From Desulfobacteraceae bacterium (lineage in GTDB: Bacteria > Desulfobacterota > DSM-4660 > Desulfatiglandales > Desulfatiglandaceae), in NCBI GenBank assembly GCA_030613055.1, contig JAUWMR010000020.1, positions 1-64,000 of the forward strand: DNA of 64,000 nucleotides, in the 5' to 3' direction. Positions within the stretch are counted from its first letter, which is position 1. Each line of letters begins with the position of its first letter. The notes beneath the pieces are model-generated. The model was not told the origin of the DNA. It did no database searches and saw nothing but the letters and a program-made list of their open reading frames with translations. This document shows positions 16,306 through 61,919 of this stretch, piece after piece. Position numbers and translations under genes: made by a program.

Positions 16306-17364
16306 CTATTCTTTCTTAGGTTTCCATACAATTTTGCCTTTATTATTAATATACATTTTCTGGTTGTCTTCGGTTATAACCAACGCCAGCCCGTTTGAAA
16401 AGTCGAATGCGTTGAAATAGTTGACCGGTTTTACTACGTAATTACCGCTTTTATCTATGTAACCGAAATACATTTCGTATGTTTTCATATCTGTGATATA
16501 AACTACCGCAAGGCCTTCGGAAAAACCCAGGCCGCCATCGAACCTTGGACTGATAACCATTTCCCCGTTTTTATTGATGTATCCCCGTTCATCTCCGATT
16601 TCAACCGCGGCGAGGCCTTCGGAAAAGCCCAATGCAAAAGAGAAAGAAGGTTTAATGACGTATTCACCCATTTTGTTAATATACCCGCAATTTCCCCCCG
16701 TTACCGACGCTGAACCACTTTGGTCGTAACTGTAGCCAACTTCTTGTACCATGGCCAGCCCTTCGGAAAAATTCAATGCTTCATGAAACTGCGGTTCAAC
16801 AATAATACTGCCTTTTGGATCAATATACCCCCATTTATTGTCTATCTGAACGGCGGCCCGTTCCTCTTTAAATGGCCTTGCTGAGGTCATTTTAAACTGT
16901 GGAGCAACGACATAACTCCCTGTTTTGTTTATATAACCCCACTTAAATTTGGGCCAATCCCTAACCGCGGCCAGCCCTTCTGAAAAAGCGTACGCAAAAT
17001 CATATTTTGGCTCTATCACATATTTACCTGTTCTGTCGATATAACCCATGTAGATATCTTTCCCTCTCACGGCTGCAAGACCCTCTGAAAAATTACTTGG
17101 ATATCTAAAAGCAAAATCAATGATTTTTTTGCCGGTCGTGTCAATATACGTCCATAGATTGCCTCTTTTAACTGCGGCAAGGCCTTCCGAAAAACCCTTG
17201 GCGCCATCAAATGTAATTCCAATGACTACCTTCCCGGTTGAATTAATATATCCCCATTTTCCGTTTGCGTCCTGAACCGGAAACAGCTCGTTGCTCGCGA
17301 ACAAACTAGATGAAAAGATGAACAGACATATCAAGGCAATGAAAACAATAAATAATCTTTTCAT
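16306..17364 (-). CDS. exported WG-repeat protein
   Basis: Start at 17364 has AGGAG upstream and gives a signal peptide (MKRLFIVFIALICLFIFSS, then SLFA). The 352-residue product is built from about eight WG (KWGYINxxGKxVI...FSEGLAxV) repeats, for example NGKWGYINSTGKVVI, IDRTGKYVIEPKYDF and YINKNGEMVISPRFDG. The phrase FSEGLA recurs six times, with the variants FKEERA and FSNGLA. WG repeats fold as beta hairpins and are thought to serve binding or scaffolding; no catalytic function is known. It is the last gene of a - strand run of exported proteins that includes a serpin. Confidence 0.88.
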   Translation of the reverse strand: MKRLFIVFIALICLFIFSSSLFASNELFPVQDANGKWGYINSTGKVVIGITFDGAKGFSEGLAAVKRGNLWTYIDTTGKKIIDFAFRYPSNFSEGLAAVRGKDIYMGYIDRTGKYVIEPKYDFAYAFSEGLAAVRDWPKFKWGYINKTGSYVVAPQFKMTSARPFKEERAAVQIDNKWGYIDPKGSIIVEPQFHEALNFSEGLAMVQEVGYSYDQSGSASVTGGNCGYINKMGEYVIKPSFSFALGFSEGLAAVEIGDERGYINKNGEMVISPRFDGGLGFSEGLAVVYITDMKTYEMYFGYIDKSGNYVVKPVNYFNAFDFSNGLALVITEDNQKMYINNKGKIVWKPKKE

Positions 17365-42356: not shown

Positions 42357-45300
42357 ATGAACACTGACCTATCATTTATTACGAACGAAGAAAAACAAAG
42401 TCTTAAAGAGCGGTTTGAAGTCCTTATTAAAGACACTTCATTCTTTGACTGCCTTGTTGGTTACTTCTATTCAAGCGGGTTTCACGCTATCTACACGTCC
42501 TTGGAAAATACAGAAAAAATCAGAATTCTTATTGGAATCAGCACAAGCAGACAAACTTACGAATTACTGGAAAACGCCAAAAAACAAAAACAGCAACAAA
42601 TTGATTTCTCGCATGCCGAAACCAAGCAGGAAATCGAAAATCTTGTTCAAAAAGAAATGGAGGATTCTGAGGACAATAGAAAAGTTGAAGAAGGCGTAAA
42701 AAAATTTATAGAATGGGCTAAAAGCGGCAAATTGGAAATAAAAGCTTATCCGTCACAGAACATACACGCCAAACTATATATTATGACATTTACTGAAGGC
42801 GACAGGGATGCCGGACGTGTTATTACAGGCTCCAGCAATTTTACTCAGGCCGGGTTGGTTGATAATCTTGAATTCAACGTGGAACTGAAAAACAGAAGTG
42901 ACTATGATTTTGCTATAAATAAATTTGAGGAATTATGGAAAAACGCTGTAGATGTCAGCGAAAAATATGTTCAGACAATTCAGGAAAAGACGTGGTTGAG
43001 TCAAAATATCTCACCATACCAGTTATACCTGAAATTTCTCTACGAATATTTCAAGGATGAACTTAGCCAGACAGATGAAGTATTTGTTAAGTATCTCCCG
43101 CAGGAGTTTAAAAAGCTTGAATATCAGGAGCAGGCGGTTTTAAACGCTAAAAAGATACTTCTGGAATACGGCGGTGTTTTTATCTCCGACGTTGTGGGCC
43201 TGGGAAAAACATACGTTTCAGCAATGCTGGCAGGTCAACTGGAAGGCAGAACACTTGTCATCGCCCCGCCGGTGCTTTTGGAAAAATCCAATCCAGGCTC
43301 CTGGCCGAATGTTTTTTCAGACTTCAGAGTTCCGGCTGATTTTGAATCTATCGGCAAACTGGACCATCTGCTGGCCAGAGGAACAGACAAATACACAAAT
43401 ATTATTATTGATGAGGTACACCGTTTCCGAACCGAAACAACAATTTCCTATGAGAAACTGGCGGAAATATGCCGCGGGAAAAGAGTTATCCTGGTAACTG
43501 CAACTCCTTACAATAACACCCCAAAAGATATCCTAAGTCTTCTTAAATTGTTTCAGAAAGCCAAAAAAAGCACAATTCCCAATCTGCCTGATCTCGAAGC
43601 ATTCTTTAGCAGGCTGGCCAAAAAACTTAAAAACCTGGACCGAAAGAAAGACTATACCGAATACATAAATACTGTAAGGGCAAACGCACGGGAAATACGC
43701 GATAAAGTGCTTAAATATTTAATGGTGCGCCGCACCAGGACCGAAATTGAAAAATATTTTAGCAAAGACATAAAAGAACAGGGTCTTAAATTTCCTGATG
43801 TTAAAAAACCGCAGCCGCTGTTTTATGAACTAAACGATGAAGAAGACGATATTTTTACTAAAACCATCGACATGATTGCCAATAAGTTCATATACGCCCG
43901 TTACATGCCCATGCTTTATTATGAAGGCAAAATTGACCAGCTTGAAGAGCAGTCCCAGAAAAACATGGGACGGTTTATGAAAATCCTGCTTGTCAAACGG
44001 CTGGAAAGCAGTTTCTTTGCCTTTAGAAATTCAGTTGACAGATTCCTGCATTCCTACGAAATGTTCATAAAAGAGTTGGATAGCGGCAATGTGTATGTAA
44101 GTAAAAAGCATACCAACAAGATATTTGAACTGCTGGAGAACGACGATGACGAGGCAGTTCAGCGCTTAATAGATGAAGGCAAGGCGGAAAAATATGAGGG
44201 CAAAGATTTCAGAAAAGAGCTCAGAATAGATTTGCAGCATGACCATGATATCCTATTGGAAGTCAAAAAGCTCTGGCAGAAGGTAAACCGTGACCCGAAG
44301 CTCATAAAATTCATAAACGATTTGTCAAAAAATGCAGTCTTAAAAAACAATCATCTTATTATTTTTACGGAATCAAAAGAAACAGCCAATTATCTGTTTA
44401 ATAACATAAATGATAAGTATCCTGACAAAGTGCTTTTGTTTACAGGTGGTTCAGGCGAGTCTGTGCGGGATAAAGTGATTGAAAACTTTGATGCCAGAGC
44501 CCGTCACCCAAAAGAAGATTATCGAATACTTGTGTCCACCGAAGTCCTGTCGGAAGGTGTAAACCTGCATCGTGCAAATGTAGTGATTAATTATGATATA
44601 CCCTGGAACCCAACCAGAATGATGCAGAGAGTGGGACGTATTAACAGAGTTGATACACCCTTTGATGTTATCCATACCTTCAATTTTTTTCCAACCAAAC
44701 AATCTAATGACGAGATAAAGCTGAAAGAAGCAGCAGAAGCAAAAATCAATGCCTTTTTAACCCTGCTTGGCGGCGATGCGGAGCTTTTAACCGAAGGAGA
44801 GCCTATAGGTTCACATGAGCTATTTGATCGCTTGACTTCAAAGAAAACACTGGAAGGCGAGGATGAAACTGAGTATAGCGAACTTAAATATCTTCAGGTT
44901 ATCCGGGATATCCGTGAAAAGGAACCTGACCGTTTTGAAAAAATTAAACGCCTGCCCAAAAAAGCACGCACAGCAAAGCTTAACAATGATTTTGCGAAGT
45001 CGCTTATAACCTACTTCAGGCGCGGGAAACTGCAGAAGTTTTTCAGGGCAAAGGACAAAAAGGCAGCAGAAGAACTTGATTTTATATCAGCGGCAAAACT
45101 GCTTGAAAGCTCGCCTGATGAAAAAAGGAACAAGCTTCCCGGAGAGATTTATGATCTCCTGGATAAAAACAAGGAAGCCTTTATTATTGCTACTACCGAA
45201 GAAATGGCTGAACCTCAAAAAAGAAGAGGGCGTGACAGTGCTGCAAGGATACTGAGAATTATAAAAGCAACCATGAAAAACACGCAGAAACTCACCGATG

Positions 45301-45548
45301 ACCAGGAATTTTACCTTAAAAAGGTATTGACCCAGCTCGAAGAAGGCGGGCTGCCCAAACAAACGGCAAAAAATACATTAAAAGCATTGAATGCGCTTAA
45401 TAATGAACTGATAAATCCTTTTAAAGTATTGGCCGTTCTCCAGACTCATATCCCGTCAAAACTGTTGGAAAGCCATTATGCCGAGCAGAATCCCGCAGTA
45501 TTCGGTAAACGTGAAGTAATACTCTCATTATATCTGACAGGTGTATAA
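42357..45548 (+). CDS. PLD-like/SNF2-type helicase (restriction-like defence protein)
   Basis: 1063 residues with GAGGATATAT upstream. Residues ~20-215 form a phospholipase-D-like nuclease-type domain with one HxK motif (NIHAKLYIM, His137/Lys139) and GSSNFTQAG. The SNF2/helicase core follows: Walker A VVGLGKTYV (~278), DEVH box (IIIDEVHRF, ~350), LVTATPYNN (motif III), and motif VI MMQRVGRINRVD (~756). The C-terminal ~250 residues are charged and helical. Such fusions belong to restriction-like antiviral loci, where the helicase moves along DNA and the PLD domain may cut. The next gene starts one base past its stop, and an Eco57I-type enzyme follows. Confidence 0.9.
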   Translation: MNTDLSFITNEEKQSLKERFEVLIKDTSFFDCLVGYFYSSGFHAIYTSLENTEKIRILIGISTSRQTYELLENAKKQKQQQIDFSHAETKQEIENLVQKEMEDSEDNRKVEEGVKKFIEWAKSGKLEIKAYPSQNIHAKLYIMTFTEGDRDAGRVITGSSNFTQAGLVDNLEFNVELKNRSDYDFAINKFEELWKNAVDVSEKYVQTIQEKTWLSQNISPYQLYLKFLYEYFKDELSQTDEVFVKYLPQEFKKLEYQEQAVLNAKKILLEYGGVFISDVVGLGKTYVSAMLAGQLEGRTLVIAPPVLLEKSNPGSWPNVFSDFRVPADFESIGKLDHLLARGTDKYTNIIIDEVHRFRTETTISYEKLAEICRGKRVILVTATPYNNTPKDILSLLKLFQKAKKSTIPNLPDLEAFFSRLAKKLKNLDRKKDYTEYINTVRANAREIRDKVLKYLMVRRTRTEIEKYFSKDIKEQGLKFPDVKKPQPLFYELNDEEDDIFTKTIDMIANKFIYARYMPMLYYEGKIDQLEEQSQKNMGRFMKILLVKRLESSFFAFRNSVDRFLHSYEMFIKELDSGNVYVSKKHTNKIFELLENDDDEAVQRLIDEGKAEKYEGKDFRKELRIDLQHDHDILLEVKKLWQKVNRDPKLIKFINDLSKNAVLKNNHLIIFTESKETANYLFNNINDKYPDKVLLFTGGSGESVRDKVIENFDARARHPKEDYRILVSTEVLSEGVNLHRANVVINYDIPWNPTRMMQRVGRINRVDTPFDVIHTFNFFPTKQSNDEIKLKEAAEAKINAFLTLLGGDAELLTEGEPIGSHELFDRLTSKKTLEGEDETEYSELKYLQVIRDIREKEPDRFEKIKRLPKKARTAKLNNDFAKSLITYFRRGKLQKFFRAKDKKAAEELDFISAAKLLESSPDEKRNKLPGEIYDLLDKNKEAFIIATTEEMAEPQKRRGRDSAARILRIIKATMKNTQKLTDDQEFYLKKVLTQLEEGGLPKQTAKNTLKALNALNNELINPFKVLAVLQTHIPSKLLESHYAEQNPAVFGKREVILSLYLTGV

Positions 45549-45549
45549 T

Positions 45550-46878
45550 ATGACGAATAAAGAATCTCAAACTGTTGAATATAAACAAAACTGGCGTGAT
45601 GACTGCCTTAAGGCCATTTCCGCATTTGCAAACAGTGATGGCGGAAATTTGATTATCGGATTGGATGACAAGGGAAAACCTTCAGGATTGAAAAATGTAA
45701 AGAGACAACTTGAGGATATACCAAATACAATCAGGAATAAACTTGGTATCATTCCATCTGTTGAACGGAACAAGAAAAACAAGAAAGATATAATCAAGAT
45801 CACAGTTACACCATGTTCTGTTCCCATTTCTTACAATGGCAAATATTATCTTAGAAGCGGAAGCACTTTGCAGGAATTAAAGGGAAAATATCTGGCAGAT
45901 TTCCTTATGAAGAAATCAGGCATCACATGGGATGATATTGTTGAAGAAAGAGCCGGTTTTAATGAGACAGATAATGATTCCATAGAAAAATTTAAAAAGT
46001 ATGCTGTTGATAGAATTCCCTCAATTATTAAAGAAACAGACAATACCACACTTCTGCAAAAATTAAATCTGATTGATGACGGAGATTTAAAAAGAGCAGC
46101 AGTTCTTCTTTTCGGAAATGACCCGCAGAAATTTTTCCGCCAGTCTGTGGTCAGAATCGGTAAATTCCTGTCAGACACAGAAATTCAAACAACCGATATT
46201 ATCAAAGGGAATCTTTTTGCACAACTGGAAAGCGCCCTGGAAATCCTGCGGACAAAATATCTGGTCAGCAATATACAATATGAAGGTATTCACCGCCGCG
46301 ATATTCTTGAATATCCTTACGAAGCCTTAAGAGAAGCGATCATTAATGCTTTGATTCACCGGGATTATTCCGGTAATTCACAAATCCAGATACGGGTTTA
46401 TTCTGATAAATTGATTATCATGAATGAAGGCAAGCTCCCGCCTGAAATACCTGTGGAAAAATTGAAAACCAACCATTTATCCATACCGAAGAACACACTC
46501 CTTGCTAAAATTTTCTATTATGCCGGATTTATTGAATCATGGGGGCATGGGACCATAAAAATTGTAGAAAACTGTATAAAACAGGGACTGCCGGAACCGG
46601 ATTTTATGGAAGAAAATGGTGTTATGACGGTCGTTTTTTATAAAGATAAATGGACTGAGGAAAATCTGAAGAAATTGGAGTTGAATGACAGGCAGATTAA
46701 AGCGGTGACGTATGTAAAGGAAAAAGGGGGAATTACCAACAGAGAATATCAGAATATAAACACTGTCTCTAATAAAACTGCTTATCTGGAATTATCAAAT
46801 CTTGTTAAAAAAGATATTTTTAAAGTTTTGGGCAAAGGCAAATCCGTATCTTATACACTGAAAGTAACGGAAAGGTAA
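45550..46878 (+). CDS. Schlafen-AlbA_2 / HATPase_c_4 ATP-binding regulator
   Basis: About 442 residues from the ATG at 45550, one base past the helicase stop (an in-frame GTG at 45541 would overlap it). N-terminal Slfn/AlbA_2 domain: ESQTVEYKQNWRDDCLKAIS, FANSDGGNLIIGLDDKG, YYLRSGSTLQ. Middle: an ATPase-like domain with PYEALREAIINALIHRDYS (N box) and FIESWGHGTIKIVE. C-terminus: a winged helix (ITNREYQNINTVSNKTAYL). Members are commonly called transcriptional regulators or helicases; function is poorly known. It may control or assist the flanking restriction-like enzymes. The 397-bp gap after it has only short repeats (GTAATGAAAGTAATG; GACGCCAAA) and no gene. Confidence 0.85.
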   Translation: MTNKESQTVEYKQNWRDDCLKAISAFANSDGGNLIIGLDDKGKPSGLKNVKRQLEDIPNTIRNKLGIIPSVERNKKNKKDIIKITVTPCSVPISYNGKYYLRSGSTLQELKGKYLADFLMKKSGITWDDIVEERAGFNETDNDSIEKFKKYAVDRIPSIIKETDNTTLLQKLNLIDDGDLKRAAVLLFGNDPQKFFRQSVVRIGKFLSDTEIQTTDIIKGNLFAQLESALEILRTKYLVSNIQYEGIHRRDILEYPYEALREAIINALIHRDYSGNSQIQIRVYSDKLIIMNEGKLPPEIPVEKLKTNHLSIPKNTLLAKIFYYAGFIESWGHGTIKIVENCIKQGLPEPDFMEENGVMTVVFYKDKWTEENLKKLELNDRQIKAVTYVKEKGGITNREYQNINTVSNKTAYLELSNLVKKDIFKVLGKGKSVSYTLKVTER

Positions 46879-47275
46879 CAAAAGGGTAATGAAAGTAATG
46901 CAATAGTAATGAATAGTAAATTCATTATATTATCCGGGATAAATGATGGAATAAAAAAATAGCATTAATAATTATCATTAAGCAAAAGACGCCAAAGGCG
47001 CAACAAACACGCCATAAAGACGCCAAAAGGAAAAAAGCTCACAAACGGCTCAAGGGGCGCTAAAGGAGTACCAAAGAGGCGAAGGGACAATATCTTAAGG
47101 ACATAACGGACACATTTCAGCATTTGTCAGACATTGTCATTAATATGAAATGGGCAATAATTGGGCAATGGTGAGTCAAAAAAGCGCCGGAGAGTTTTAT
47201 TTATTTGCGCTAATTGCACCATTAATGCGTCATAATTGCGGAAAAGACGCTGAAAGCTATATTAAAGAATAGTCT

Positions 47276-50200
47276 ATGGATAAACAGCAGGCACAAGAGA
47301 TCATTAAAGACACCTTTGAAAGCTCTTTTGACAAGGTGCGTTTTACTAATTTCATCAAAAATCTTTTGAACAACATTGATGAATCAAAAGCATTCCATGC
47401 TCACGGTTATGTAAAGGAAGGGTTCCGGGGTATTATCAAAACATACGAACGTATTGGAACTTATAATTCAGCCGATGATAAAAAGGTTGATATCATTGTT
47501 GCTTATCTGCAAAAAGGATTTTCACTCGATCATGCCCGGGTAACACAAAGAAATTTTGCTGGTAGATATCTTGTTGAAAGAGGTGAAAAAGACGTCGGAT
47601 TATTTGCTTTTGTTTCGCCCGAAGAATCAGACTGGCGGTTTTCTCTGGTCAAGATGGATTATAAGTTTGAGCAAACGAAATCCGGCAGAATGAAGGTGAA
47701 GGAAGAATTCACTCCTGCCCGGCGCTGGTCGTTCCTGGTAGGTGGAAACGAAAAAAGCCACACCGCGCAAAGCCGTCTTGTGAAAATACTGGCAAATGAT
47801 GAACAAGCCCCAACCCTGCAAGAGCTCGAAAAAGCCTTTGATATTGAAACTGTCACCAAAGAGTTTTTCCTCAAATACCGTGAACTTTTCCTGCGCACCA
47901 AGGAAGAGCTGGACAGGGTTGTTAAAAAAGATCCAAAAATCAAGGCTGATTTTGAGGCCAAGGGCGTTGATACAGTAAACTTTGCAAAGAAACTACTGGG
48001 ACAAATTATATTCCTTTATTTTTTGCAAAAAAAGGGCTGGTTCGGCGTTGGCCGCGATGATGACTGGGGTACCGGCACAAAGCATTTCCTTCGCGAACTG
48101 TTTGAGAAAAAACATGCTGATTATAGCAATTTCTATAACGACATTCTGGAACCGCTCTTTTATGAAGCCCTGCGCATTGACCGTAGCCATGACGATGGTT
48201 ATTACAGCCGGTTCGACTGCAAAATCCCCTTCCTAAACGGAGGCCTTTTTGATCCCATCGGCAACTACGACTGGGTGCATACCGATATACTTATTCCAGA
48301 CAAACTCTTTTCCAACAATGTAAAGACAAAAGAGGGCGATACCGGAACAGGCATACTCGATGTGTTTGACCGCTACAACTTTACGGTAAAAGAGGATGAA
48401 CCGCTGGAAAAGGAAGTTGCCATCGACCCGGAGCTTCTGGGAAAATCCTATGAAAAATTCAACGCCATACGGCCGGATAACTTTGCTGAATTCAAAATAG
48501 CATTAAAGAGCGGCAAGAAAGGCGAGGAAAACAAGTTCAATAAAAAATTCGGCGTCTATTACACCCCCCGCGAGATTGTCTACTACATGTGCCAGCAAAG
48601 CCTGATAAACTACCTTCATACTGAAGTCATTGCGAGCGAAGCGAAGCAATCTCTAATTCCTTCCAAAGAAGATATCGAAACCCTGATCCATACCGGCGAG
48701 CAGGTCAGCGAAAATGAAGCAATCTTTTTAGAAAAAGAACAAAAGATTAAAAAAGGGGAGCAAAAGACTACCAGTATAAAATTGATACTGCCTGACAGCA
48801 TCCGAAAAAACGCGAAACTGATTGATGGTAAACTGGCGGAAATAACGGTCTGCGACCCAGCCGTAGGATCAGGTGCATTTCCGGTAGGCATGATGAGTGA
48901 GATTGTAAAGGCCAGAAATGTGCTTACGCCTTTCTTGTCATTGCGAGGAGCGCAAGCGACGAAGCAATCTCAATTCAATGACAACCGCACGCCTTATGAA
49001 TTCAAACGCCGCTGTATTGAGCATTCCCTTTATGGCGTGGACATCGATCCAGGCGCCGTTGAGATTGCCAAACTGCGGCTGTGGCTGTCGCTGGTAGTGG
49101 ATGAGGATGACATTGAAAATATAAAGCCGCTGCCGAACCTTGACTATAAGATCGTCTGCGGGGATTCACTATTGGGATACCCCTATGAACCAATAGGACT
49201 GGAAGCGATTGAAAAATTGAAACAACAATTTTTTAATGAGATACATCCCAAGGAAAAGCAACGATTACATAAAGAGATTGATGATGCCATTTATGGACTT
49301 TACAAAAATACTGAACAAAGCCTTGGATACAAAGTTACAATAGATTTTCAAATCAATTTCTCCGAGGTATTTCGTAACCAAGGTGGCTTTCATGTCGTGA
49401 TTGCCAATCCTCCCTATGTTCGTCAGGAAGCGATCAGGCATCTTAAACCTCATTTAGCCAAGGCCTACGGCAATTTCTACTGCGGCACGGCAGACATCTA
49501 TACCTATTTCTATAAACGCGGGATCGACCTGTTGAAGACCAGTGGCCATCTGTGCTTCATTGCGCCCAACAAGTTCATGCGCGCCGGCTATGGAAAAAAC
49601 ACGCGCGTTCTGTTGACCACCGTGGTTACGCCAAAACTGGTCATCGACTTCGGCGACCTGCCTATATTTGACGCCACAACATATCCTTCAATCCTCCTTG
49701 TTGCAAAACAGAGGCCCGATGAACACGATAAGGCAGCAGCCGCCACTTTCACCGAGGCAGATCAGCTTGAAAGACTGGAAGAAACCCTCAACCGGATAGG
49801 TTTCCCAATAGCCGTTGCCTCTCTCAAGAAAGAGGGCTGGAATCTGGAACGGCCGGAGGTACTGGCCCTTATGGAAAAGTTCAGGTCATCCGGAATTCCT
49901 TTGGGTGAGTATGTCCATGGACGATTTTACCGAGGTGTATTGACCGGTTTCAACGAGGCCTTTGTCATTGACGCCGCCGGGCGTAAAAGGCTGATTGCCG
50001 AAGACGCGGCCAGTGCCGAGTTGATTAAACCCTGGCTCAGGGGACGTGATATCTGCAAATGGAAAGCGGAGTGGGCCGGATTATATCTTATCAATATCCC
50101 CAGCAGCGCCAACCGCCAATGGCCCTGGTCGTATGCAAAATCCGAATCAGAAGCCGCCCGCTTGTTTGAGCAAATCTATCCCGCTGTTTACAGACATTTG

Positions 50201-50689
50201 TCTCAATGGGAAAAGCAATTGCATAAACGGGACGACCAGGGGAAATTCTGGTGGGAGCTGCGTTCGTGCGTATATTATGAGGCTTTTGAATGCCCGAAAA
50301 TTGTTTATCCAAACATTACAAAAACAAATATCTTTGCCTTTGATGCAACCAGTATTTTGACAAACCAGAAATGCTTCATCATACCTGTTGATGATCTCTA
50401 TCTCCTGGCTGTTCTGAATTCTAAAATGGCTACCAGGTGGTTTCGCTCAACACTACCTCTTCTTCGCGGCGGATATTTTGAACCGAGCGCCATTTTCATG
50501 GAGAAATTTCCTGTTTTCCCTTCAACCGACGCCCAGAAAGCGCCCATAATCGAACTTACCCGCACCATCCTCGCCGAACCCGACAGCCCCGACGTTCCTC
50601 GCCTAGAAGACGAGATCAATAATCTTATTTACAGCCTCTACGGCCTGATAGATAAAGAAACTGTTATAATCATGGAGAAAAGAGGATAG
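47276..50689 (+). CDS. Eco57I-type (type IIG-like) restriction-modification enzyme
   Basis: 1137 residues. The N6-adenine methyltransferase core contains motif I CDPAVGSGAFPVGM (~525-538), LYGVDIDPGAVEIAKLRLWL (split) and motif IV VIANPPYVRQE (~709-719). The N-terminal ~450 residues would hold a nuclease/helical region (FGVYYTPREIVYYM ends it), and the C-terminal ~350 residues a TaqI-like specificity domain (YLLAVLNSKMATRWFRSTL). A catalytic nuclease motif was not confirmed. Two palindromic intergenic-type repeats are inserted in frame, at residues ~451-460 and ~554-566. Third gene after the PLD-helicase; the start has no strong ribosome site. Confidence 0.88.
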   Translation: MDKQQAQEIIKDTFESSFDKVRFTNFIKNLLNNIDESKAFHAHGYVKEGFRGIIKTYERIGTYNSADDKKVDIIVAYLQKGFSLDHARVTQRNFAGRYLVERGEKDVGLFAFVSPEESDWRFSLVKMDYKFEQTKSGRMKVKEEFTPARRWSFLVGGNEKSHTAQSRLVKILANDEQAPTLQELEKAFDIETVTKEFFLKYRELFLRTKEELDRVVKKDPKIKADFEAKGVDTVNFAKKLLGQIIFLYFLQKKGWFGVGRDDDWGTGTKHFLRELFEKKHADYSNFYNDILEPLFYEALRIDRSHDDGYYSRFDCKIPFLNGGLFDPIGNYDWVHTDILIPDKLFSNNVKTKEGDTGTGILDVFDRYNFTVKEDEPLEKEVAIDPELLGKSYEKFNAIRPDNFAEFKIALKSGKKGEENKFNKKFGVYYTPREIVYYMCQQSLINYLHTEVIASEAKQSLIPSKEDIETLIHTGEQVSENEAIFLEKEQKIKKGEQKTTSIKLILPDSIRKNAKLIDGKLAEITVCDPAVGSGAFPVGMMSEIVKARNVLTPFLSLRGAQATKQSQFNDNRTPYEFKRRCIEHSLYGVDIDPGAVEIAKLRLWLSLVVDEDDIENIKPLPNLDYKIVCGDSLLGYPYEPIGLEAIEKLKQQFFNEIHPKEKQRLHKEIDDAIYGLYKNTEQSLGYKVTIDFQINFSEVFRNQGGFHVVIANPPYVRQEAIRHLKPHLAKAYGNFYCGTADIYTYFYKRGIDLLKTSGHLCFIAPNKFMRAGYGKNTRVLLTTVVTPKLVIDFGDLPIFDATTYPSILLVAKQRPDEHDKAAAATFTEADQLERLEETLNRIGFPIAVASLKKEGWNLERPEVLALMEKFRSSGIPLGEYVHGRFYRGVLTGFNEAFVIDAAGRKRLIAEDAASAELIKPWLRGRDICKWKAEWAGLYLINIPSSANRQWPWSYAKSESEAARLFEQIYPAVYRHLSQWEKQLHKRDDQGKFWWELRSCVYYEAFECPKIVYPNITKTNIFAFDATSILTNQKCFIIPVDDLYLLAVLNSKMATRWFRSTLPLLRGGYFEPSAIFMEKFPVFPSTDAQKAPIIELTRTILAEPDSPDVPRLEDEINNLIYSLYGLIDKETVIIMEKRG
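48626..48653 (+). repeat. palindromic repeat inserted in frame, copy 1
   Basis: GTCATTGCGAGCGAAGCGAA plus GCAATCTC lies inside the Eco57I-type gene and encodes VIASEAKQS without disrupting the frame. This sequence is familiar as a short intergenic palindromic repeat of many bacterial genomes. Copy 2 (48937-48971) is similar but longer. Confidence 0.7.
48937..48971 (+). repeat. palindromic repeat inserted in frame, copy 2
   Basis: GTCATTGCGAGGAGCGCAAG plus CGACGAAGCAATCTC encodes LSLRGAQATKQSQ between methyltransferase motif I and the GVDIDP acidic strand. It shares GTCATTGCGAG...GAAGCAATCTC with copy 1. Confidence 0.75.
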
Positions 50690-50762
50690 CACGGAGACCA
50701 GTCAATGAATAAATCAGGAAAAGCATTATGAACCTCATGACACATCTGTAAAGGGGGCCGTT

Positions 50763-50941
50763 GGTTCCAAAACGACTTACGAATAAAGAAATCTGTTCAA
50801 TATGGTTCAGTGCAAAATGATTATATTCGGTTGATGCGTTTTACTGAAATAGAATAGTATGCCACAAATTTTCACATTATCAGGAGCGATTTGCAACATA
50901 ATTAGATCTTATAGTATTTAACAGTATATCGTTTTGGAATC
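50763..50941 (+). mobile_element. MITE, GGTTCCAAAACGA family, copy A
   Basis: 179 bp. The left end GGTTCCAAAACGACTTACG and right end CAGTATATCGTTTTGGAATC are inverted repeats. No coding capacity. Preceded by GTAAAGGGGGCC. Full-length copy, with small differences from B and C. It accounts for the gap 50690-50983. Confidence 0.88.
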
Positions 50942-50983
50942 AACATCCCGTTTTAGGAAGCCTTTAAAATAAGACTCAAAAAA

Positions 50984-52885: not shown

Positions 52886-52913
52886 ATCAACGGGTATTTA
52901 AAGGAGGGAATTT

Positions 52914-53093
52914 GATTCCAAAACGACTTACGAATAAAGAAATCGGTTCAATATGGTTCAGTGCAAAATGTTTTTATTCGGTTGATGCGTTTTAATGAAA
53001 TAGAATATTATGCCATTAGACTTTCTCATTATCAGGAGCGATTTGTAACATAATTAGATCTTATAATATTTAACGGTAAATCGATTTGGAACC
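52914..53093 (+). mobile_element. MITE, GGTTCCAAAACGA family, copy B
   Basis: 180 bp, left end GATTCCAAAACGACTTACG, right end GGTAAATCGATTTGGAACC. The interior has >90% identity by eye to copy C. It lies immediately upstream of the gene at 52088-52885, so may carry its promoter. Confidence 0.88.
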
Positions 53094-53171
53094 AACGTTT
53101 TACTTTTAAAAATCATCCTTGATAGTTTAGCGGACAGACTGGAATTTTAATACTGTCAAATCATTACCAGC

Positions 53172-53681: not shown

Positions 53682-53747
53682 AGTCTATCCTTTCGTTTGG
53701 ATTGAATAATCACAGGTGTTGTAAATGGGGACGTAAAGGGGGACATT

Positions 53748-53927
53748 GTTTCCAAAACGACTTACGAATAAAGAAATCGGTTCTATATGGTTCAGTGCAA
53801 AATGGTTATATTCGGTTGATGCGTTTTACTGAAATAGACTAATATGCCACTAAACTTTCTCATCATCAGGAGAGATTTGCAACATAATTAGATCTTATAA
53901 TATTTAACGGTAAATCGTTTTGGAACC
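53748..53927 (+). mobile_element. MITE, GGTTCCAAAACGA family, copy C
   Basis: 180 bp. Left end GTTTCCAAAACGACTTACG, right end GGTAAATCGTTTTGGAACC. Preceded by GTAAAGGGGGACATT and followed by AACGTTTTAC, so an outer imperfect inverted repeat (GTAAA..GTTGG) may extend the element. Confidence 0.9.
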
Positions 53928-53933
53928 AACGTT

Positions 53934-54120
53934 TTACAGTTGGGCTTCCATCCTTTCTTTTATACGTTTAGCCACATCCTTACCTATTTCCATGACCTCC
54001 TGGGGTGCACGTACCTTATCACCCAAAAAGATTTTTAGACCTGTTATAAGTGGTTCCATAACTTTTTGTATATTAGTCTGCTCCAATATCTTAAGACTTT
54101 CATCAGCATATCCGGCAGTA
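53934..54120 (-). pseudogene. gene fragment between MITE C and a GTAAAGGGGGAC repeat
   Basis: The - strand frame encodes AGYADESLKILEQTNIQKV and GLKIFLGDKVRAPQEVMEIG before stopping at the MITE flank. It reads like a real protein C-terminus, but its N-terminal part would lie inside the repeat at 54121-54166, so it is cut off. The parent family is not recognised. Confidence 0.4.
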
Positions 54121-58110: not shown

Positions 58111-58300
58111 GTATGTGTCGTTTACGCGCTTCCCTTGGTCTTCACCGCTGCAAAGAAGCTCGGCTCGGCCAGTTAAAAGAGAGACCCGTGTAAAATGCGA
58201 CAGAAAACAAAAAAAGTCATGCCCCATCCCTGGAAGCATGACCTTATATATTCTCGGATCCATATCTTTTAATCACTTGATTAACGAAAGAGGGGACATT

Positions 58301-58457
58301 GGTTCCAAAACGACTTACGAGTAAAGAAATCGGTTCTATATGGTTTAGTGCAAAATGTTTTTATTCGGTTGATGCGTTTTACTGAAATAGAATAGTATGC
58401 CATTAGACTTTCTCATTATCAGGAGAGATTTGTAACATAATTATATCTTATAATATT
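58301..58457 (+). mobile_element. MITE, GGTTCCAAAACGA family, copy D (right end lost)
   Basis: Left end GGTTCCAAAACGACTTACG intact and interior typical; similarity stops after TTATAATATT at about 58456, so the right terminal repeat is missing. The remaining gap 58458-58868 contains a run of GGATTCAAGG/CAAGGATTCC direct and inverted repeats and AT-rich DNA, no gene. Confidence 0.85.
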
Positions 58458-58868
58458 GGATCATCTCCAAATTGGTTGGTGATTCTGAGAGGATTCAAGG
58501 GGCCAAGGATTCAAGGATTCCAGTGAAATGCTCAGAATTTCAAATAAAAATCGGTGAGGTTGAAAAGATGCTTAATGCCTCGACCCCTTGACTCCTCGAA
58601 TCCTGGAACCCTTTCTCCCAACGGCTTATCAAATCTTTAGTCCGATTTAAGATATCGGGCCAATCTAAGCAATTAATACTTGTTGATATATATCTAAAAG
58701 GCTGTAATATTGACCCTAAAATGACCTCTTCAGGGGTAAGAAGATCGATTGAGCTACTGCACATGCCAAGGGAAAAGTGTTAATTAGAATATTTTCCCTG
58801 ACATATCATTATGATAGCTTGGCCCGGCAACAGATCAAAATCAACAAATCACAATCAAAACTCTGAAA

Positions 58869-60404: not shown

Positions 60405-60433
60405 TAAGCGTTTAGGGACGTAAAGGGGACATG

Positions 60434-60522
60434 GGTTCCAAAACGACTTACGAATAAAGAAATCGGTTCAATATGGTTCAGTGCAGAATGGTTATATTCG
60501 GTTGATGCGTTTTACTGAAATA
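60434..60522 (+). mobile_element. MITE, GGTTCCAAAACGA family, copy E (left half only)
   Basis: Left end GGTTCCAAAACGACTTACG through GCGTTTTACTGAAATA, then divergence. Preceded by GTAAAGGGGACAT. The right half and terminus are missing. Confidence 0.85.
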
Positions 60523-60596
60523 TGATAATTTACTGAAATCAGGGAGCCATTTAAAACGCTTGATAGACTGGCAAGAGTACCAGGTATCAAACCGTG

Positions 60597-61919
60597 CTAT
60601 CTCACTTGTAAATCAACTTTACCTCCGGTTGCAGAAAACGCATAATATAAAGGCACAAAGGAGATACGTTCTTCAGCTAATTCCCTATAGGGCCCTGTAG
60701 AAAAAACGATTCCCTTCGGGCAGTTCTGATAGGTCTCTAAAAAGATGTGCAGGCTTTTAAGTCTTCCGGAAGGCCCGCTTTTTACCTCAATCGGATAGAT
60801 TTTTCCGTCAATAATGGCCAGATAATCGACTTCCGCGGAACTGCTTTTTGCTTGTCTTGACCAATAATGAAGACTGCCATTTTGGGACAAAAGCATCTCC
60901 TGGCCGACAAATTGTTCTGCCATGCCGCCTTGATAAATATTGAGTAATTCCGCCTTTTGGTATTCGACATCTATAGGCATCCCTGTAAGATAACGCATTA
61001 GACCTATATCCACCATCAGGCCTTTAAATACTTTATAGGAAGATGAAGCGCCAAGGGGCAAGCCCGAAGGGTCAGCAGAAGGGATCTTCGCAGTAATCTT
61101 TGCCATAGCAAGCAGATCAAATGCCTTTTTTAAAGTCGGGTTTGAAAAGTCGGTAGCGAGTCTCGAATACTTTATCTGCTGTCCCACGTTTTGTGATATG
61201 GATGTTAATACTGAGTTCAGACAATCTTTGTTGACCTGCGGACGGTATTTTGCGAAATCCATCCGATATGTTTCACAGATCTCAACCTGAACCTCAAACG
61301 CCTCCTGCATGGATCCTGATTCTACATAAGAGAGGACACTTTCCGGCATTCCGCCAATAAAAAAGTACTTCCTGAGTTCTTCACACATAAACTCATGCAC
61401 TGACTCTGAAACCGCTTTTGGGGGTTCAAGAAGGATTCCTGCTGCTTCGTTATGACCGATTGCTAAAAGATATTCAACAAAGCAAAGGGGGTACAGTTGA
61501 ACGAACTGTATCCTTCCAACAGGGAATGAGATGTCTTTCATGGCAAATTCAAGGAGAGAACCGGCAGCAATCACATGCAGATCAGGTATCTCCTCATACA
61601 GGTAACGAAGGGCGGTAATCGCCCTTGGACACGCCTGAATTTCATCAAAAAAAAGCAGGGTTTTCCCGGGTTGAATTTTCTGCCTGAGGAGGATTTCCAG
61701 GTCCGCGATGATCTGCTTCGCGTCTAATTTGCCGCTAAATATGTGGTGCAGCTCCGGGTTTCGTTCCAGGTCCGCCAGTGCGAACATATCGAAATGGGTC
61801 TCCCCAAAAGACCTTATGGAATAGGTCTTGCCGACCTGCCTGGCGCCACGGACTATAAGAGGTTTTCGTCTCTTACGATGTTTCCATTTTAATAATTCTT
61901 GATCGATGAAGCGTTTCAT
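60597..61919 (-). CDS. AAA_14/DUF4143 family ATPase
   Basis: 440 residues, AAGGAT upstream. Walker A VRGARQVGKTYS (~24-35), Walker B KTLLFFDEIQACP (~88-100), sensor AAGSLLEFAM. The C-terminal DUF4143 domain has EVDYLAIIDGKIYPIEVKSG, a PD-(D/E)XK-like nuclease core (D..EVK) common in this family. Cellular role is poorly understood; such genes are mobile and duplicated in many anaerobes. It shares nothing with its neighbours and sits at the island's right edge. No frame disruption. Confidence 0.9.
   Translation of the reverse strand: MKRFIDQELLKWKHRKRRKPLIVRGARQVGKTYSIRSFGETHFDMFALADLERNPELHHIFSGKLDAKQIIADLEILLRQKIQPGKTLLFFDEIQACPRAITALRYLYEEIPDLHVIAAGSLLEFAMKDISFPVGRIQFVQLYPLCFVEYLLAIGHNEAAGILLEPPKAVSESVHEFMCEELRKYFFIGGMPESVLSYVESGSMQEAFEVQVEICETYRMDFAKYRPQVNKDCLNSVLTSISQNVGQQIKYSRLATDFSNPTLKKAFDLLAMAKITAKIPSADPSGLPLGASSSYKVFKGLMVDIGLMRYLTGMPIDVEYQKAELLNIYQGGMAEQFVGQEMLLSQNGSLHYWSRQAKSSSAEVDYLAIIDGKIYPIEVKSGPSGRLKSLHIFLETYQNCPKGIVFSTGPYRELAEERISFVPLYYAFSATGGKVDLQVR

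Follow-up and report, generated by a model that had tools for sequence, protein, structure and literature searches.

In-frame palindromic repeats and RAYT transposases at recurrent sites of a type IIG restriction-methyltransferase and its partner helicase

Palindromic repeats that are translated within genes have been described before. According to Di Nocera et al. 2013 (PMC3733652), in-frame repetitive extragenic palindromic (REP) sequences are known in Rickettsia and in other bacteria: the Rickettsia palindromic elements (RPEs) RPE-4 and RPE-6 of Rickettsia conorii are listed as intragenic CGTC repeats, and free-living bacteria carry in-frame GTAG and CGTC REPs, many of them in DNA-repair genes, with double inserts and with one recB site shared by two Xanthomonas (sites in other related genes are said to differ). 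As to the REP-associated tyrosine transposases (RAYTs, or TnpA_REP), in-frame REPs were noted within tnpA_REP, and unusually long TnpA proteins were dropped as fusions or annotation errors (PMC6006769). Here we analyze a stretch of 64,000 nucleotides (nt) from a Desulfobacteraceae bacterium (contig JAUWMR010000020.1; hereafter the window), in which two REP-like units are translated within the gene of a type IIG restriction-methyltransferase (the query). L and G numbers are our handles for loci and genomes. The two positions, called sites 1 and 2, are recurrent hotspots for unrelated repeats and for whole RAYT genes, which goes beyond what a preliminary description of the window had seen.

The units resemble RPE-4, RPE-6 and RPE-1 of Rickettsia in being palindromic repeats in frame in coding genes, a likeness rightly drawn in the preliminary description. 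Whereas the RPEs are spread among numerous genes of a single genus, in the present case unrelated families, in several phyla, fill the same loops of a defence system. The REPs of Di Nocera et al. are likewise in frame, and some genes (uvrA and uvrB) hold two inserts, so that two inserts in one gene, earlier put forward as distinctive, have precedents; nonetheless the available text names no restriction enzyme and no in-frame RAYT (PMC3733652). With REPtrons the elements found in relatives of the query share a Y1 HUH transposase of predicted activity, flanking palindromes and solo repeats that are probably non-autonomous copies, but in the usual REPtron the transposase does not lie in frame inside a host protein. 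Inteins too are in-frame residents at conserved host-protein positions and spread by gene transfer. Unlike inteins, the long inserts described here lie in variable loops, are expected to stay in the protein and have no splicing (Hint) domain (only Y1_Tnp or REP_Tyr_transpos was matched). Within the literature library searched, no report was found of hotspots shared across phyla, nor of in-frame RAYTs in defence methyltransferases, the helicase, alanyl-tRNA synthetase (AlaRS) or FabZ.

The two in-frame units and their repeat family

The host open reading frame (ORF; Table 1) matches PF07669 and PF12950 in Pfam as well as the PADLOC model REase_MTase_IIG (PDLC03596; 1302 bits, residues 1-1132 covered). 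By its domains it is a type IIG restriction-methyltransferase of predicted activity, with an Eco57I-type methyltransferase and a target-recognition domain in one chain. The repeats begin at 48626 and 48937 and are both translated (VIASEAKQS and LSLRGAQATKQSQ), as the preliminary description had it. Unit 1 (core of 28 nt) starts at codon 451 in phase 0 and unit 2 (35 nt) at the third base of codon 554; since the start phases differ, the units are read in different frames. Unit 1 is located upstream of methyltransferase motif I, and the translation confirms the earlier placement of unit 2 between motif I (CDPAVGSGAF) and the GVDIDP strand (YGVDIDP). The sources are mostly metagenome assemblies and repeats may cause misjoins, so an assembly artefact or a pseudogene might be considered. 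This is scarcely credible: the frame of 1137 amino acids (aa) is intact and full-length, without sign of a pseudogene, and fillings at the same two sites turn up in numerous separate assemblies, one of them the complete genome of Candidatus Brocadia pituitae (L066).

Counting the repeat in the source genome, as had been proposed, gave 27 copies of the strict pattern in 4.26 Mb (none for the reversed pattern) and 208 copies of the wider CGTC superfamily (none in the control); shuffled windows contained no match. Together with the homologues discussed below, these controls rule out a chance origin of the repeats. That the repeat is normally intergenic holds as well: 25 of the 27 strict copies fall outside long ORFs or at ORF ends and the only 2 well inside a long ORF are those of the IIG gene, while the other superfamily copies in the window all (10/10) lie outside ORFs of 150 aa or more, the intragenic count being based on the 27 strict copies plus the window and not on all 208. 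In being short, palindromic, dispersed and mostly intergenic, the repeats agree with CGTC-type REPs (RPE-like).

Many other genomic copies have conserved flanks and are arranged as convergent pairs, and hence look like arms of a larger dimer; both intragenic copies are single units with gene flanks. As to the CGTC tag at one end of such elements, a C precedes many genomic copies (..GTACGTCATT), where the intragenic units read AGTC and TGTC instead. A local derivation of the units from other genomic copies is unsupported: among the 27 strict copies, the exact sequence of neither unit is found a second time. In contrast, unit 1 is frequent elsewhere, in the genomes G178 and G174 for example.

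Recurrent filling of sites 1 and 2 and of a helicase site

We retrieved 62 named homologous loci and aligned 55 sequences. Of the approximately 55 aligned homologues only L102 has inserted residues of the query, namely those of site 2, and it carries the identical DNA unit; over the 67 nt spanning CTTACGCC to AACCGCAC the two sequences differ at two positions. Homologues in which site 2 is empty, L085 among them, have VFLNDNSRTAYEFK where the query reads PFLSLRGAQATKQSQFNDNRTPYEFK. Site 1 is LATELDGKASKEDIE in short homologues and a longer non-repeat segment in others, against LHTEVIASEAKQSLIPSKEDIE in the query. No repeat-free homologue in the alignment encodes the same residues, and the insertion proposed in the preliminary description is borne out by empty sites and by other fillers.

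These other fillers, again in frame at sites 1 and 2, are of several kinds: GTCATTCCC..GGGAATCC types (L065, L112, L085, L068), GTCATTCCGAGCGAAGCGAGGAATC (L111), AACCCTGACAGGGTT dimers (L066, L109, L110), CAGGCTTCC/CACAGGCA/CACAAGCA types (L081, L074, L100) and single cases such as CAATGGGCTTAAGCCCATTG in L095 and a GGGTTTGCAACCC hairpin in L089. A hairpin scan of the 55 genes peaks at sites 1 and 2 alone, with 10 or 11 genes with a hairpin per 25-codon bin against a median of 1, although the scan is parameter-sensitive (with 6-base arms the peaks vanish into the background). As hairpins within one gene are not independent, the per-gene count is the fairer figure. On a tree built after leaving out the insert columns, no fewer than 6 changes are required for the filling of site 1 (supported branches force 4 of them) and no fewer than 9 for that of site 2 (6 of them forced); the IIG gene is mosaic, which makes these counts rough, and the unrelated sequences of the fillers add to the case for recurrence. 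We consider the insertions at sites 1 and 2, their nature as hotspots, the recurrence and the in-frame RAYTs (see below) to be established.

The dimer of L066 sits at the same nucleotide of site 2 as the unit in the query and L102. Moreover, the empty form of site 2 in L085, L075 and others reads CTTAATGACAA, where AATGAC is the reverse complement of the GTCATT end of the inserted CGTC unit and thus a possible target match. It might be argued from this that the hotspots stem from a target-sequence preference of the mobile elements rather than from loop tolerance. We find this unlikely, as the same loops are used by unrelated families with other ends and neither site 1 nor the helicase showed an AATGAC-like match (no systematic test was made).

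Dispersed copies of the own filler are present in the host genomes G172, G156, G191 and G192. The genomes G155 (L065) and G173 (L111) have no clear copy other than the unit in the IIG gene, which points to gene transfer with the repeat inside; that some of the inserts moved with the IIG gene by horizontal transfer is strongly indicated. In the plasmid collection all matches were below 60% identity, and among viral contigs there was one match, L120, with the same length and match as L093.

A third hotspot, site H, is found in the partner helicase (SNF2/PLD). Its fillers are AACCCTGACAGGGTT dimers in L110, L101 and L066, a CGTC-type unit in L061, CAGGC-type repeats in L059 and L070, and RAYTs in L081 and L228. 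The recurrence of two enzyme sites and one helicase site between phyla might indicate that the inserts tune the enzyme (through domain spacing, partner contact or an mRNA hairpin) and that their acquisition was selected, as might the identical site 2 unit of the query and L102 next to conserved residues with only 65% third-position identity. Nonetheless, the high-identity tract of this pair extends into the flanks, the fillers are unrelated in sequence and in length (about 10 aa to about 250 aa) and the majority of homologues do well without an insert, so that we hold an adaptive origin to be quite improbable.

Transposases in frame within host proteins

In L100 (Candidatus Brocadia sp. WS118) a Y1_Tnp transposase is located in frame at site 1, within an open frame of 1367 aa; in L094 and L110 the in-frame transposase is at site 2. 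The embedded transposases are bordered by palindromic composites. Solo in-frame copies of the L100 composite are present both in this gene (at site 2 and in its N-terminal half) and in the helicase that goes with it, and CACAGACA-type repeats in G192 and G181 are confined to the embedded RAYT. The elements match PF01797 and NF047646 (most NF047646 scores being near or below the cut-off of 80), retain NHVH and in most cases match the Y motif. Judged by RAYT domain, HUH motif and flanking palindromes, the in-frame elements of the relatives are of REP-RAYT (REPtron) type. Short stand-alone RAYT copies mostly have a start codon 8 to 19 codons before the conserved LPH block. In six embedded RAYTs (L100, L188, L189, L194, L201 and L202) the 37 codons preceding this block are free of ATG, GTG and TTG, which suggests that the embedded RAYT would be made as a fusion with the host protein. 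A predicted fold of the L094 fusion was uninformative (mean predicted local distance difference test of 51.5).

A search with the RAYT in 294 genomes of the phylum of L100 gave 59 matches. They include in-frame RAYTs in PglX (L189, L201), DUF1156 methyltransferases (L194, L202), an IIG relative (L188), AlaRS (L190, L191, L195), FabZ (six loci, of which L197, L198, L200 and L203 were assigned by reading the sequence beside relatives, with no profile search) and a bifunctional hydroxylase (L193). Within the Planctomycetota AlaRS and FabZ-type dehydratase (L196-L200, L203) genes, the RAYT site is about constant for each gene. The phylum of the window (395 genomes) yielded 7 full-length matches of this RAYT, 6 of which are embedded in larger open frames (900 to 1337 aa): four methyltransferase-like genes (DUF1156-type reading), an IIG gene, filled at site 2 (L231), and an SNF2 helicase of this system (L228). 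The assignments of L194, L229-L231, L233 and L234 likewise come from reading beside relatives, with no profile search.

In a tree of the RAYTs, clustering by host gene exceeds chance but is imperfect, which implies that several RAYT lineages are involved. The three RAYTs at IIG site 2 form one supported group and those of L100, L228 and L081 another. Separately, a histidine kinase-like ORF in L134 (G187; + strand, from position 2) has repeated VERSATSL-type peptides, probably in-frame REP clusters.

Genomic setting, origin and meaning

Table 1. Features of the host gene and its neighbourhood in the window.
Feature	Position	Strand	Basis or remark
REP unit 1 (site 1) GTCATTGCGAGCGAAGCGAAGCAATCTC, single CGTC-type, read VIASEAKQS	48626..48653	+	sequence; genome repeat family; other repeats here in homologues
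REP unit 2 (site 2) GTCATTGCGAGGAGCGCAAGCGACGAAGCAATCTC, single CGTC-type, read (L)SLRGAQATKQSQ	48937..48971	+	sequence; same unit in L102; dimer in L066
Type IIG restriction-methyltransferase (Eco57I + TaqI_C)	47276..50689	+	1137 aa, host of both repeats
Methyltransferase motif I CDPAVGSGAF, residues 526-535	48851..48880	+	translation; residues invariant in alignment A1; between the two units
Partner SNF2 helicase, N-terminal PLD domain, insert-free here	42357..45548	+	Pfam PLDc_2, SNF2, Helicase_C
Helicase site H (KLNNDFAKSL), empty in window	44976..45005	+	helicase alignment; REPs or RAYT there in other loci
AlbA_2 / RecG-like regulator, between helicase and IIG genes	45541..46878	+	Pfam PF04326 and PF13749

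The SNF2/PLD helicase, the AlbA_2 protein and the IIG enzyme form a syntenic block (42357-50689), and the helicase is syntenic in most homologue loci. For many loci the helicase is 75 to 95% identical between phyla, which is consistent with a mobile system and suggests that the block serves in defence and has been passed on widely. Clustered downstream of the IIG gene are five copies (61-92% alike) of a 203-nt element resembling a miniature inverted-repeat transposable element, at 50750-50952, 52901-53103, 53735-53937, 58288-58490 and 60421-60623, with inverted ends TAAAGGGGG..TTCCAAAACGACTTACGAATAAA. Elsewhere in the window (16376-17258), tandemly related repeats of 27-37 nt with spacings in multiples of three probably belong to a minus-strand repeat protein.

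Overall, it is very probable that REP-like mobile units inserted in tolerant loops of the IIG enzyme, where they are the survivors of selection, and that these loops were repeatedly hit by unrelated repeats and RAYTs. The two units have entered the coding sequence, at loops that would tolerate added residues; the frame would have survived because each insertion added a length divisible by three and brought no stop into the frame that is read, and because selection on the enzyme eliminated other outcomes. Unrelated palindromic repeats have arrived in the IIG loops and in one helicase loop on many independent occasions. Autonomous REP-RAYT elements have in some lineages entered these loops as well, where they would be translated with the host protein, and the genes would then have spread between phyla with the inserts inside. 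The units are most likely selfish insertions retained at a flexible, tolerant loop; we infer both their neutrality and loop tolerance as the cause of the hotspots. In a structure model each insert lies in coil flanked by helices, with low confidence for site 2.

Several points weigh against this course of events. The structure model is modest (predicted template modelling score of 0.42). The site 2 identity of the query and L102 reads as shared descent or recombination, and not as a second insertion. A search for a transposase cognate to the CGTC units of the window found none, in line with PMC3733652, and none of the 8 Y1_Tnp genes of the own genome has a CGTC unit nearby (in the flanking stretch examined). 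Consequently, the role of a RAYT as mobilising enzyme is graded: it is well supported for the CACARRCA families, given that one gene holds both autonomous and solo copies, and unproven for the CGTC units of the window. Tentatively, and at a little short of even chances, we propose an ORF-resident life style for a group of REP-RAYT elements, in which the transposase would reside in frame in host proteins, above all anti-phage methyltransferases and helicases (and in Planctomycetota AlaRS and FabZ), be made as part of the host protein and seed solo repeats at corresponding loops of its host gene and of partner genes.

In-frame REPs are usually regarded as isolated oddities of individual genomes; in the present case the same loops of a mobile defence system gather unrelated repeats across phyla. 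The hotspots provide a natural guide to where type IIG enzymes and SNF2 helicases tolerate insertions. For annotation there is a warning, as such proteins may be labelled transposases or mistaken for fusion artefacts. Finally, an autonomous element and its solo repeats occur within one protein, and the in-frame RAYTs suggest that a transposase may persist without splicing inside conserved, even essential genes.
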